64,000 nucleotides of DNA from Candidatus Nanopelagicales bacterium (GCA_030827125.1 JAURFD010000009.1:48759-112758); one strand, 5' to 3'; counted from the stretch's first letter, positions 57,377-64,000 are shown. Numbers and translations: made by a program. The notes: generated by a model from the letters alone, not told the origin.

Positions 57377-57565
57377 ATGTGTCATCGAGTGACGTGCAAG
57401 AGATGTGAGAAGGCGTCGTGGTCCGGCTGCGGGCAGCACGTCACCCAGGTCCTCAAAGGGGTACCCAAGAATCAGCGCTGCAAGTGCACCCAGGCCGAGC
57501 TGGCGCAATGGAAGAAGGAGCACTCGCTCTTCCACCGGCTCTTTGGCAAGAAGTCTTCAGTCTGA
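57377..57565 (+). CDS. Small Cys-rich protein of unknown function (62 aa, likely metal-binding)
   Basis: MCHRVTCKRCEKASWSGCGQHVTQVLKGVPKNQRCKCTQAELAQWKKEHSLFHRLFGKKSSV. Cys spacing CX4CX2CX7CX16CXC. Confidence 0.85.
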   Translation: MCHRVTCKRCEKASWSGCGQHVTQVLKGVPKNQRCKCTQAELAQWKKEHSLFHRLFGKKSSV

Positions 57566-57611
57566 CGATGGCTCGCTAGGGTACGGGCTCCACCATCGTC
57601 AGGAGTTCGGC

Positions 57612-58514
57612 GTGCTGATCGGGATCGACTGGGGCGGCACCAAGATCGAGGGTGTCGCCATGGAGCGCGACGGTCGTGAGCTCCTGCGCATTCGAGAGGC
57701 GACGCCGCGCGGCGACTACGACGGCTGTTTGCGCCTTGTCGCCGATGTTGTGCGCCGCCTGGAGGTCGAGACCGGCCAGCAGGGTTCGGTCGGAATCGGC
57801 ATCCCGGGCTCGCTGGAGCCGGAGTCGCGCCGAGGCAAGGGCGGAAGTTCGACCTGGATCAACGGAAGGCCAGTGGAGGCCGACCTGCGCGCCACGCTGG
57901 GTCGAGAACTGCGCATCGAGAACGATGCTGACTGCTTCGCGGTGTCGGAGGCGATTGATGGGGCCGGGGTAGGCCACCGGGTGGTCTTCGGCGTGATCAT
58001 CGCCAGCGGGTCCGGTGCGGGGATTGCCGTGGATGGCCGTGCCCATCACGGCCCGAACAACAGTGCGGGGGACTGGGGCCACAACCCGTTGCCCTATCCG
58101 CGGGACGACGAGGTGCCGGGCACCGAGTGCTATTGCGGAAAGTACGGCTGCATGGAGACCTGGATATCGGGCTACTCCTTCGCCCGCGACTTCATCCGAC
58201 ACGGTGGAGGTGACCTTGCTCCCGCGCAGATCATGGAAATGCGCCGCAGTGGTGACGAGCGAGCCGACCTCACCTATCGGCGCTGGGTCGATCGCGTGGC
58301 CCGCGGACTCGCTGTCGTGGTCAACACCGTGGACCCGGATGTGTTTGTCATGGGCGGAGGGATGAGCAATATTGACGAGATGTACGAGGACCTACCCGAG
58401 CTCGTGCGCGAATACGCTTTCAGCACCGTATTCGCTACGCCTATTCAGCGAGCCCTACATGGAGACTCGAGCGGCGTGCGCGGTGCTGCCTGGCTGTGGG
58501 GGGAGCGATCATGA
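57612..58514 (+). CDS. ROK family sugar kinase
   Basis: LIGIDWGGTKIEGVAM, GIPGSLEP, ENDADCFAVSEA, GSGAGIAVDG, CYCGKYGCMETWISG (ROK zinc motif). Confidence 0.92.
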   Translation: MLIGIDWGGTKIEGVAMERDGRELLRIREATPRGDYDGCLRLVADVVRRLEVETGQQGSVGIGIPGSLEPESRRGKGGSSTWINGRPVEADLRATLGRELRIENDADCFAVSEAIDGAGVGHRVVFGVIIASGSGAGIAVDGRAHHGPNNSAGDWGHNPLPYPRDDEVPGTECYCGKYGCMETWISGYSFARDFIRHGGGDLAPAQIMEMRRSGDERADLTYRRWVDRVARGLAVVVNTVDPDVFVMGGGMSNIDEMYEDLPELVREYAFSTVFATPIQRALHGDSSGVRGAAWLWGERS

Positions 58515-59299
58515 CCGAACAATGGCTGGAGGACCGTTACGCGGTCGCCTGCGAGGTCCTCGCGGAAGCGGCCGACATTGCCCTGCGCTTTTCGCGTGAG
58601 CGCTCATCGCTGACCATCGAAGCGAAAGGCCCGCAGGACCTCGTCTCGCAGGCCGACCGCGAGGTCGAGGCGCATATCCGGCGCCGATTGATCGATGCCT
58701 TCCCCGAGGACGCTTTCGTCGGGGAGGAGACCGGCAGGGGGGGCGCTGAGGGCGCCACCGGCGCGTGGGTCGTCGATCCCATCGATGGGACGCAGCCGTT
58801 CCTGCTGGGGCTGCCCTTTTGGTGCGTGTCCATTGCGTACGTACGTGATGGTGAGCCGGTGATTGGAGTGATCAAGAATCCGACGACCGGGGATGTGTAT
58901 GCCGCGTACCGTGGCGGCGGCGCGACACTCAACGGTGTGCGGACATCGGTGCTCTCGGCGGATCGGCTTGATGAGGGCGTGACCGGCGTCGGCTGTTCGA
59001 GCACCACCACCCCTGGGGACCTCGCACAGATCATGCAACGGCTGCGTGAGCAGAACGGCATGTACCTGCGAGTGGGCTCCGGTGCCCTGAACATCGCCTA
59101 CGTGGCTGCCGGTCAACTCATCGGGTACGTCGAAATGCACATCAACGGCTGGGACTGCCTCGCTGCCCTGTGCCTGTGCCAGGAGGCGGGGGCCGTGTGT
59201 AGTGACTTCATCGGCTCCTACGGCATCGCTGGAGGCGGGAGAGTCGTCGTGGGAGCACCCGGCGTCTATGACGCGCTCGTCGATCTCCTACCCACCTAG
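58511..59299 (+). CDS. Inositol monophosphatase family protein
   Basis: FVGEETGRGG, WVVDPIDGTQPFLLGLPFWCVSIAYV, GYVEMHINGWDCLAALCLCQEAG. Confidence 0.92.
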   Translation: MTEQWLEDRYAVACEVLAEAADIALRFSRERSSLTIEAKGPQDLVSQADREVEAHIRRRLIDAFPEDAFVGEETGRGGAEGATGAWVVDPIDGTQPFLLGLPFWCVSIAYVRDGEPVIGVIKNPTTGDVYAAYRGGGATLNGVRTSVLSADRLDEGVTGVGCSSTTTPGDLAQIMQRLREQNGMYLRVGSGALNIAYVAAGQLIGYVEMHINGWDCLAALCLCQEAGAVCSDFIGSYGIAGGGRVVVGAPGVYDALVDLLPT

Positions 59300-59330: not shown

Positions 59331-59350
59331 GCATGACTGAATATTCATGC
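59331..59350 (+). promoter_or_regulatory. Inverted-repeat operator candidate upstream of the sugar operon
   Basis: GCATGACTGAATATTCATGC: outer arms GCATG/CATGC and perfect core palindrome TGAATATTCA, 27 bp upstream of the kinase start. Confidence 0.55.
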
Positions 59351-59376
59351 AGCGATGAGATTTCGGGAGGTGCCCT

Positions 59377-60840
59377 GTGTCGGAAGCGATCGTCGCGATC
59401 GACGCGGGTACGTCGTCGGTCAAGGCCCTACTCGTCGATGTGCCCAGCGGTGCGGTCCTCGCACGTGCGTCGGCTCCGCTGGCCTTGCACACGCCTAGAC
59501 CCGGCTGGGTCGAGCAGGATGCCGGTGAACTCATGAACGCGGTTGATGCGGCCGCGGACGAGGTCCTGCAGCGCAGGCCGGATGCCACCGTGTTAGGCAT
59601 CGCCATCAGCAATCAGCGCGAGTCCGTGGTCGCTTGGGATGCGGTCACTGGCGAGCCCGTCGGCCCACTGCTGAGTTGGCAGGACGCGCGCATGGCTGAG
59701 TTCGTTGCTGGGTTCGATGACGACGTACGACACCTCGTGCGCCAACGAACTGGACTGACCCTCGACGCGATGTTCTCGGCGCCCAAGATGTGCTGGCTGC
59801 TCGACAATGCGGCAGGGGATGACGTGCGACTTGGCACGGTGGACTCCTGGATCGTCCACAACCTGACGGGCTCGTGGTCCATCGAGGCCGGCAATGCCTC
59901 GCGAACCCTGCTACTTGATCTAGCGACGGGCACATGGGACGACGAACTGCTCGAGGTGTTCGGTATCCCGCGCAGCGCGCTGCCCGAGGTATCGCCTTCA
60001 GATGCCGACCTCGGTGTCACGCGCGGCCGACCTGCCATCCCCGATGGCATGCCCATCCTGTCTGTGCTCGCCGATTCCCATGCTGCGCTATACGCCCAAG
60101 GCACGGATTCGCCGGGTGCGGGTAAGGCGACCTACGGGACCGGTACCTCGGTGATGATTCCGCTCGCGGCCTTGGCGCCCCCTGCGCAAGGGATCGATAC
60201 GACGATCGCCTGGTGGACCTCCGGACCGACCTACGCGCGGGAGGGCAACATCTTGGCGACGGGCCAGGCGCTGGACTGGACCGCGCGTTTGCTCGCCGCC
60301 GGGGATAACCGCTCCGGCGGTGAAATCCTCGGCGAACTTGCGCATGGCGCACAGGACTCTGGTGGGGTCACCCTCGTGCCCGCCTTTACCGGTCTGGGCG
60401 CTCCGCATTGGGATCGCGCGGCCACGGCGATCCTGAGCGGTATGTCGGCCACGACGACACCGGCCCAGGTGGCCCGCGCGGCGTTCGAGTGCGTGGCCCA
60501 TCAGGTGACGGACCTCGTGGAGGCGATGACGGCCGATGGGCACGTCACCTTGTGTCAGGTGCATGCGGACGGCGGTGCGTCGACCTCCGACCTACTCATG
60601 TCCGTGCAGGCGGATCTTCTCGGGCTGCCCGTGGCCCGCGCCCGCGAATCTGCCCTGTCACCCCTCGGGGCGGCACATCTAGCTGCCCGTCGGCTCGGCA
60701 CGCCACTGCCGCCCATTGACCGTGAACAGCCCACGACCCCCACGATGTCGCCCGCCGTGCGCCAACAGGTACGGACCCACTGGCGTGTGGCCGTCGCTCG
60801 CTCTCGGTTCACCCCCACCCACCCCGAGGAGAACGCATGA
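59377..60840 (+). CDS. FGGY-family carbohydrate kinase
   Basis: [98 protein letters not shown] start. Confidence 0.93.
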
Positions 60841-61829
60841 CCGACTACCCGCCCTTCGGTGCCGGCCTGTGGCACTTCGCCAGCTACGTCGACCGCTATG
60901 CCACCGACGGCTACGCGCCACCGGTCAGCACTCTGGAGATGATCGAACGTGCCGCCCAGGTGGGGGAATTGTCGGCTGTGGATGTGCCCTACCCCTTCAC
61001 CCAGGGCATCGGTGTCGACGAGGTTCGCGACGCGCTGCGGGCGAACAACCTCTTCGTGACGGGAATTACTCCCGAGATCTATCTGCGCCGATTCAGCAAG
61101 GGCGCTTTCACGAACCCCGATCCGGGAGTGCGGGCGCAGGCGCTGGAGTTCATGAATGAGGCTGCCGACATCGTGCGGGCCCTTGATGGCCAGTACCTCA
61201 AGATCTGGCCCGGACAGGATGGCTGGGACTACCCCTTCCAGGTCAACCACCACGACCTATGGGCCCTCGCCGTCGACGGCATGCGGGATCTCGCCGCCGC
61301 GAATCCCGATCTGCGCATCGCTATCGAGTACAAGCCGCGCGAGCCACGGGTGAAGATGACGTGGGACTCGGCCGCGCGATCGATTCTCGGTATTCAGCAG
61401 ATCGGGCTCGACAACGTGGGCGTACTGCTGGACTTCGGGCACTCCCTGTACGGCGGCGAGTCTCCGGCGGACGCGGCCCAACTACTCATCGACCATGGCG
61501 TGCTTTACGGCATGGATGTCAACGACAACTTGCGTTCGTGGGATGACGATCTCGTCGTCGGCACGGTCCATCTGACCGAGATCTTCGAGTACTTCTACAC
61601 ACTGCGCATCAATGACTGGGAGGGCGTGTGGCAGCTGGACCAGTTCCCCTTCCGAGAGGACACGGTGGAGGCGGCCCGCCTATCGATTCGCACCCTGAAG
61701 GCTCTCTATCGCGCCCTTGATGACCTCGACATGCCGGCGCTGCAGGACGCGCAGGCGCGCCACGACGCCCTCGCCGCGCAGCGGATCGTCCAGACCGCAC
61801 TGCTCTCTTCCATGGCCGGTCACGAGTGA
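60837..61829 (+). CDS. Xylose-isomerase-like TIM-barrel sugar (phosphate) isomerase/epimerase
   Basis: [59 protein letters not shown]. Overlaps the kinase stop by 4 nt. Confidence 0.85.
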
Positions 61830-62632
61830 CGGCGACCCCGGCCGAGCTCGCCGACGCGGCCCGCCGGGTGCGTTTGCGCGACCTGCACATGGTCGCCGAC
61901 GCCGGCATGGGGCACATCGGCGGCGAGTTCTCCGTCACCGACATTCTTGTCACGCTCTACCTCGGGGTGCTCAATCTCGAAGGCGGTAGCGAACGAGATC
62001 GACTGATCCTGTCCAAGGGGCACGCGGCAGCCGCGCTGTACTCCACCTTGGCGGAGGCCGGACTCCTCGACGAATCCGAGTTGGCCAGTTTCACGCGGGC
62101 GGAGTCGGCGCTCAATGGTCACCCGGCCAACACGAAGGTGGAGTGGGTCGAGGCCAGCACCGGCCCGCTCGGCCACGGCTTGCCGATCGGGGTCGGGATG
62201 GCGCTCGGGGCTCGCCTTGATCATTCCGACCGTCGCACGTTTGTCATCACCGGTGATGGCGAGATGCAGGAGGGGTCCAATTGGGAGGCGCTCATGGTCG
62301 CGGCCCATCACGGTCTGGATCGCCTGACCTTGATCATCGACCGCAATGGTCTGCAGCAGGGCGCCCGGGTTGTCGATACCAGTGATCTAGAGCCGCTTGC
62401 GGACAAGTTGCGTGCGTTCGGCTGCGCGGTGGTTGAGGTCGATGGGCACAATCACGCGGAGTTGCTTGACGCTCTCGCGAGCGCGCCATCCGAGCCGGGA
62501 AAGCCCACGGCGATCATTGCGCACACGCACAAGGGGCACCCGGTCTCATTCATGTCCGATGACCCCGGGTGGCACCACCGGGTGCCGTCACCGGATCAGG
62601 TTGTTGCTGCGCGCGAGGAGATCTCCCGATGA
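61826..62632 (+). CDS. Transketolase N-terminal (TPP-binding) subunit of a split transketolase
   Basis: [84 protein letters not shown]. Confidence 0.93.
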
Positions 62633-63561
62633 CGTTGCTCCATGATTGCCGCGACGCCTTCGCGTCGACGCTCGTCGATCTGGCGGAGCACGATCCCCGC
62701 ATCGTGACGGTCGTCAACGACTCGGTCGGGTCGAGCAAGCTCGGCGAATTCGGTAGGCGATTCCCCGACCGCCTCATCAACGTCGGGATCGCCGAGCAGG
62801 CCATGGTGGGTGTCGGGGCCGGACTTGCGGCCAGTGGCAAGATCCCGTTCGTCTCGGCGGCCTCATGCTTCATGACCGCTCGGGCACTCGAACAAGTGAA
62901 GATCGATGTGGCGTACTCCGGTCACCATGTCGTCCTGTGTGGGCAGAGCCCTGGCGTCGCATACGGCGAGCTCGGCTCCACCCACCACTCGCCGGAGGAT
63001 CTAAGTTGGCTTCGCGCTATCCCTGGCATCACTGTGGTGGCGCCGGCCGATCCGGCGGAGACGAGCGCTGCCGTGCGATGGGCGGCCGCACATGACGGTC
63101 CGGTATTCCTGCGCGTCAGCCGCATGGGCGTACCGGACATCGCCGGGCTCGATGGCGAGTTCGTACCGGGGAAGTCCGCGATGCTCCGTGAGGGGGACGA
63201 TGTGACGATCATCGCTACCGGCACCGCCGTCGCGCCGACGCTGGAGGCGGCCGATGTCCTTCACGCGGAGGGCATCAGCGCCCGCGTGCTGGCCATGGCG
63301 ACAATCTCGCCCCTTGATCGCGAGGCCATCGTGACGGCGGCGCGGGAGACCGCGGGAATCGTCACGGTGGAAGAGGCCTACGTCTGCGGTCTCGGAGGGG
63401 CCGTCGCCGAAGTCGTGGTCGAGGAATATCCGGTCCGAATGCGTCGTGTTGGGCTGCGTGGATTCGCCCCAACCGGGTCCACGTCCTGGCTTTTCGCGCG
63501 TGCCGGAATCTCGTCGGTCGGCATCGCCGACGCCGCACGAGCCTTGGCTGCGGGTCGTTGA
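62629..63561 (+). CDS. Transketolase C-terminal (pyrimidine-binding + C) subunit of a split transketolase
   Basis: VVNDSVGSSKLGEFGRRFPDRLINVGIAEQAMVGVGAGLAASGKIPFVSAASCFMTARALEQVKIDVAYSGHHVVLCGQSPG. Confidence 0.93.
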   Translation: MTLLHDCRDAFASTLVDLAEHDPRIVTVVNDSVGSSKLGEFGRRFPDRLINVGIAEQAMVGVGAGLAASGKIPFVSAASCFMTARALEQVKIDVAYSGHHVVLCGQSPGVAYGELGSTHHSPEDLSWLRAIPGITVVAPADPAETSAAVRWAAAHDGPVFLRVSRMGVPDIAGLDGEFVPGKSAMLREGDDVTIIATGTAVAPTLEAADVLHAEGISARVLAMATISPLDREAIVTAARETAGIVTVEEAYVCGLGGAVAEVVVEEYPVRMRRVGLRGFAPTGSTSWLFARAGISSVGIADAARALAAGR

Positions 63562-64000
63562 ATGGTGGTATCCGGTGATTGGGCGCAGGCCGAGCTCATG
63601 ACGAAGGTCGCTCGGCTCTATCACGAGCAGGGCGTGACTCAGTCGGAGATCGCTCGCCGTCTCCATGTGTCCCAGGCCAAGGTGTCGCGACTGTTGGCGC
63701 GAGCGCGGGATGAAGGCATCGTGCGTACCACCGTGACGGCGCCACCGGGTCTCCACCTCGATCTCGAGGACGGTCTGCAGGAGCGATACGGACTCGATGA
63801 CGCGGTGGTCGTGGCGGATGCGTCGAAGGGGGTTGACCCATCAGGCGACCTCGGGGCGAAGGCTGCTCCCTATCTCGAGGCCACCCTGGCCGGCGCGGGG
63901 GCCCTGGGTGTTTCGTCGTGGTCGGCCACCCTGCTGGTGGCAGCGGAGGTGCTCGGGCGCACCGCGGGGGGGTTGACCCACGTGGTCCAACTCGTAGGAG
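63562..64000 (+). CDS. SorC/DeoR-type sugar-binding transcriptional regulator, truncated at window edge
   Basis: MVVSGDWAQAELMTKVARLYHEQGVTQSEIARRLHVSQAKVSRLLARARDEGIVRTTV (HTH) and the start of a sugar-binding domain. Confidence 0.88.
   Translation, partial: MVVSGDWAQAELMTKVARLYHEQGVTQSEIARRLHVSQAKVSRLLARARDEGIVRTTVTAPPGLHLDLEDGLQERYGLDDAVVVADASKGVDPSGDLGAKAAPYLEATLAGAGALGVSSWSATLLVAAEVLGRTAGGLTHVVQLVG

Follow-up and report, generated by a model that had tools for sequence, protein, structure and literature searches.

Apiose is a branched plant sugar, and the bacteria already known to have a pathway for its use include plant pathogens and certain E. coli. The D-apiose transketolase pathway of Pectobacterium carotovorum is encoded by aplK, aptA, aptB and apsI, the gene for D-apiose isomerase (PMC13001218, citing Carter et al. 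2018). P. carotovorum and cluster-positive E. coli were able to grow with D-apiose as the sole carbon source, while E. coli K-12 was not (PMC13001218). In P. carotovorum the genes are arranged as SBP–ATPase–permease–aptA–aptB–aplK–apsI, and the regulator gene lies on the opposite strand. The apiose cluster of E. coli ST131/SE15 (ECSF_RS02670-02715) encodes AplK, AptA, AptB, a sugar-binding regulator and a ribose-type ABC importer but contains no apsI, and two SDR oxidoreductases are proposed to replace the isomerase (PMC13001218). In the SE15 cluster (L125:22042-32989), the isomerase was absent and the two SDR oxidoreductases were present.

A stretch of 64,000 nucleotides from a Candidatus Nanopelagicales bacterium, here called the window, was analysed, and an operon related to these clusters was found at its right edge. 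All four enzymes were orthologous to those of P. carotovorum, by tree or by identity, and a SorC-type regulator was present in both. However, the gene order differed, the window operon carried no ABC importer, and the kinase and transketolase were only ~40% identical to their P. carotovorum counterparts. The E. coli cluster shared AplK, AptA, AptB and the sugar-binding regulator with the window, whereas the window additionally encoded the isomerase and had no importer. Loci from Jiangella, Cellulomonas and Phytohabitans (L012, L013 and L042, respectively) had the same order of kinase–isomerase–AptA–AptB, with transketolase identities of 63-70%, and L012 and L013 likewise ended in SorC. In these three loci an ATPase–permease–SBP block was located between the kinase and isomerase genes, and exactly that block was missing from the window lineage. 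Judged on sequence evidence, the products of the operon probably break down D-apiose through the transketolase branch, a reading to which we assign a probability of roughly 0.87. Read in this way, it is a known pathway in a new host group, involving no new chemistry and unusual mainly for the missing sugar importer.

Layout of the operon and its regulator

The four enzyme genes and the regulator gene that follows them were all encoded on the + strand.

59331-59350, no strand: candidate operator GCATGACTGAATATTCATGC, just 5' of the kinase gene
59377-60840, + strand: FGGY kinase, candidate D-apulose kinase (AplK); GTG start; FGGY_N/FGGY_C
60837-61829, + strand: XylA-like TIM-barrel isomerase, candidate D-apiose isomerase (ApsI); AP_endonuc_2; 72.0% identical to PDB 3ktc
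61826-62632, + strand: transketolase N-half, candidate apulose-4-phosphate transketolase subunit A (AptA); Transketolase_N; trees
62629-63561, + strand: transketolase C-half, candidate apulose-4-phosphate transketolase subunit B (AptB); Transket_pyr and Transketolase_C; trees
63562-64000, + strand: SorC/DeoR-type sugar-binding regulator, N-terminal 146 aa; Sugar-bind PF04198 and TransRegDeoRBac; gene cut by the contig end

Three 4-nt overlaps joined the kinase, isomerase, transketolase N-half and C-half, and the ATG of the regulator abutted the last stop codon with zero gap. The coordinates and Pfam domains (best E-values of 1e-7 to 1e-51) confirmed the gene content, the stop/start overlaps and the trailing SorC gene described in the first-pass annotation, and the layout recurred in relatives. 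There were no internal stops in any of the operon ORFs. The start of the C-half was taken as the ATG at 62629, which overlaps the TGA of the N-half; the ORF listing gave a longer version that begins with the GTG at 62569. The regulator gene is incomplete because contig C82 ends at the right end of the window (the genome of 2.6 Mb is in 82 contigs). The nearest named relative, L009 (isomerase at 96%), is a MAG that carries the label Candidatus Nanopelagicales; its regulator was complete, with 316 aa, and was followed by ribBA on the opposite strand. Among the best 80 isomerase loci, 45 were from Actinomycetota, and in 41 of these the kinase and both transketolase halves were located within 8 kb of the isomerase. 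Because it recurs to this extent with the same isomerase, the operon arrangement is not due to chance.

The candidate operator contained a core palindrome, TGAATATTCA, at 59338-59347, and a TAGGGT hexamer was located ~20 nt upstream. The operator matched exactly an 18-nt palindromic pattern that had been derived from the 59331-59350 site itself; by chance, 0.03 matches per window would be expected when as many as 3 mismatches are allowed. The core was kept in L009, and AT-rich relics were found at the equivalent place in L010, L011 and L081. We infer that the SorC regulator may use this palindrome upstream of the kinase gene. A scan for sigma-70 promoters and terminators gave matches no more numerous than in shuffled sequence. 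Just upstream of the operon, at 57477-59299, there were two mutually overlapping genes, encoding a ROK fructokinase-like protein and an inositol-monophosphatase-family protein. This pair was kept in L009 and was absent near the operon in L010, L011 and L081, and the two genes were rejected as operon members.

Relationships of the isomerase, kinase and transketolase

In a PDB search with the window isomerase, 3ktc scored 551 bits (72.0% identity over 325 aa), while the runner-up, a true xylose isomerase, scored 65 bits. The P. carotovorum cluster L051 encodes an isomerase to which 3ktc was 99.1% identical, and this isomerase is assigned as apsI because it adjoins aptA, aptB and aplK. XylA was placed far outside in the tree, on a branch of length 10, and the window isomerase reached 62 bits against the curated NCBIfam XylA cut-off of 447. 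Alignment showed that the window isomerase has kept the metal-ligand positions of XylA, where Asp stands in for a single Glu, as well as the catalytic Lys; the roles of these residues are generally known for XylA. We regard the window isomerase as an orthologue of the Pectobacterium apiose-cluster isomerase and as a candidate ApsI.

The window kinase scored 383 bits against a GlpK cut-off of 590, being below both GlpK cut-offs in NCBIfam, and 195 bits against the XylB cut-off of 380. A kinase tree with XylB/LyxK outgroups gave long-branch warnings and was rebuilt using GlpKs from the same genomes. In the rebuilt tree, 28 apiose-locus kinases were split from 15 GlpK-like kinases in 99% of bootstrap trees, with support of 93/96, which is just under the star level of the tool. 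The pocket signature of the window kinase was M132, S234-H235 and S258, and Ser-His plus Ser was found in 28/28 apiose-locus kinases versus Gln-Gln plus Phe in 14/14 GlpK. A Tyr and a Phe form part of the glycerol pocket of GlpK. The Tyr was changed to Met or Leu (Ala in one) and the Phe to Ser in apiose-locus kinases, corresponding in the window kinase to Tyr136 to Met and Phe271 to Ser (E. coli numbering including Met). With a score under the cut-off and neither the glycerol-pocket Tyr nor the Phe, the window kinase did not have the identity of a glycerol kinase. It fell with the Pectobacterium and E. coli AplK rather than with GlpK and is a candidate D-apulose kinase.

The presence of two transketolase chains alone proves little because generic split transketolases are abundant in the phylum. 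The best PDB match of both halves was one of these, the enzyme of Carboxydothermus hydrogenoformans (6yaj/6yak), which has the same two-chain architecture. In the concatenated tree, the window halves were placed in an actinobacterial clade (plus Caulobacter) that was sister to the Pectobacterium/E. coli AptAB, although they were only 43/37% identical to Pectobacterium AptAB. The Apt clade was separated from 16 generic split transketolases, with 6yak outside, at a support of 100/96 when the longest branches were left out, and at 99/97 when a one-piece outgroup was included. The Enterobacterales stem branch was long (1.6), which leaves the exact depth uncertain.

Asp469 of E. coli TktA contacts a hydroxyl that apulose 4-phosphate lacks. 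Leu115 of the window AptB (codon 62971-62973) aligned with this residue, in a column anchored by the neighbours G467, G470 and T472 as named in PMC3657141. Leu was present in 24/24 Apt members and Asp in 14/18 others, and the C. hydrogenoformans split transketolase also keeps Asp. Several changes of Asp469 in TktA raise its activity with propionaldehyde as substrate, and the enzyme tolerates Leu, among other variants, at this position (PMC3657141). The Leu in this column may be linked to substrate specificity. In the window AptA, His251 was located within a WHH motif, at a position where most generic enzymes have Gly; this His was found in 24/24 Apt members versus 0/18 others. The window halves branched with AptAB and are a candidate apulose-4-phosphate transketolase.

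The window kinase and transketolase therefore have fixed substitutions in common with the Enterobacterales enzymes that are missing in ordinary paralogues. Such signature residues would provide a simple marker of the pathway, and mutating them would test the way in which a branched sugar is handled by a transketolase. None of the matched NCBIfam models names any of the four proteins as an apiose enzyme, and automatic annotation hides the apiose gene set in Actinomycetota.

Proposed pathway and alternative readings

The four proteins did not all cluster with another characterised pathway. The isomerase (72%), the transketolase halves (sister clade of AptAB) and the kinase (on the AplK side) went with the apiose set, which supports the apiose pathway suggested in the first-pass annotation. 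Gene content, gene order, orthology and the pocket substitutions in common with the Enterobacterales enzymes were observed directly, and the reactions were assigned from the characterised Pectobacterium pathway, with the chemistry taken from general knowledge and PMC13001218. The isomerase would convert D-apiose to D-apulose, and the FGGY kinase would convert D-apulose to D-apulose 4-phosphate. The two-subunit transketolase would then transfer a two-carbon unit to glyceraldehyde 3-phosphate, yielding dihydroxyacetone phosphate and xylulose 5-phosphate. The sugar or its phosphate is probably the signal for the SorC regulator, which is encoded last in the operon and would act at the palindrome before the kinase gene. 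No enzyme biochemistry from any actinobacterium was found in the literature searched.

It is improbable that the actinobacterial branch retained the operon and the same enzyme set while shifting to another branched or short ketose. The moderate identity of the kinase and transketolase to those of Pectobacterium (~40%) would agree with such a shift, as would the importers at apiose loci, which vary by lineage (CUT2, CUT1 or none), and the nucleoside-hydrolase-like gene at some actinobacterial loci. However, the isomerase, which is the step that meets the sugar, was the best conserved (72%), the pocket signatures of the kinase and transketolase were the same as in the Enterobacterales enzymes, and the CUT2 binding-protein family used by Pectobacterium recurs at many actinobacterial loci.

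We consider it very improbable that a xylose-isomerase-like protein, a glycerol-kinase-like protein and a generic split transketolase were assembled into an ordinary pentose or glycerol operon. The best NCBIfam matches were glycerol kinase, xylA_Arthro and transketolase, and the phylum has many generic split transketolases, but every best score was under its curated cut-off and in the trees the three enzymes all fell with the apiose set. A xylose locus is present elsewhere in the same genome (L129, G000:C4:5000-20000), encoding XylB (393.5 bits, cut-off 380), XylA (567 bits, cut-off 447), an XylF-like binding protein, an ABC ATPase, a permease and a ROK/NagC-type regulator, as well as a separate GlpK on C54 and a separate one-piece transketolase elsewhere; therefore, the operon is not simply a xylose or glycerol pathway that has been misinterpreted. 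The sulfo-transketolase pathway for sulfoquinovose also uses a two-subunit transketolase, the sole point in its favour, and can practically be dismissed, as the isomerase was orthologous to the apiose-cluster enzyme and neither the operon nor the region just downstream of it in L009 showed a sulfur-related gene (the tree was built without SqwGH); we know of no role for an FGGY kinase in that pathway.

Sugar import and distribution among relatives

A cognate ABC importer linked to the apiose enzymes is common but not universal. The first-pass annotation had reported no transporter before the end of the window. This held for the window, and the relatives extended it: no ABC importer directly adjoined the operon in L009, L010 or L011, where the operon met a convergent ribBA after SorC (L010 and L011 being read by similarity to L009). 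Nor was a close homologue found in the genome. The apiose-type CUT2 binding protein gave only matches of 20-40% in nine genomes of the window's genus; the best match in the window's own genome was 24% and was located in the xylose locus. The CUT1 binding protein, the alternative apiose-linked type, gave no match in the window's genome, and no Pfam apiosidase was detected in 13 genomes.

A joint proposal, which we hold only tentatively and consider rather unlikely, is that the apiose-locus substitutions, above all the Leu of AptB, are the switch for a branched ketose phosphate and that apiose is taken up by a non-dedicated route. Such a switch would let the transketolase cleave a branched ketose phosphate without the hydroxyl that is normally read by Asp469. 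These planktonic bacteria would then import apiose, for example via the xylose-type ABC system, and live on apiose released by others. Near the apiose genes of nine actinobacterial loci, mostly beside a CUT1 sugar importer, a nucleoside-hydrolase-like protein was encoded (L029:1012-2055 and L060:5412-6527, PF01156 in both; also L019, L039, L070, L079 and L086-L088). This protein could be a furanosidase freeing apiose from apiosides.

Two more close relatives, with isomerases at ~90%, were MAGs with names suggesting lake water samples. The D-apiose reading would extend apiose catabolism to lake-dwelling, Nanopelagicales-type actinobacteria, and the gene set is widespread in Actinomycetota. Within the window's genus, the isomerase is an accessory trait: of ten other genomes (G001-G010), five had a full or partial gene at 88-96%, one had a 47% paralogue and four had no gene of this type. 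In a Propionibacteriaceae MAG (L022), the kinase and isomerase were present and the AptA-like match was just 38%. The isomerase was often located away from the kinase and transketolase genes in Pantoea, Erwinia, Enterobacter and others. Another function for the standalone isomerases of Pantoea and Erwinia was considered and rejected, as AptA was found elsewhere at 69-78% in 8/8 tested Enterobacterales genomes with a standalone isomerase, and wherever its neighbourhood was checked AplK adjoined it.

A divergent cassette, SorC–AptA–AptB–kinase–isomerase, was observed in a relative of the same family (L126:8967-14272, G028:C2). Its isomerase was at 47% and its transketolase at 52/55%; it was inserted with rsmB and rpe on either side, and ribD and ribBA were located downstream of it. 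Related kinase–isomerase pairs were also present in G006 and G034.
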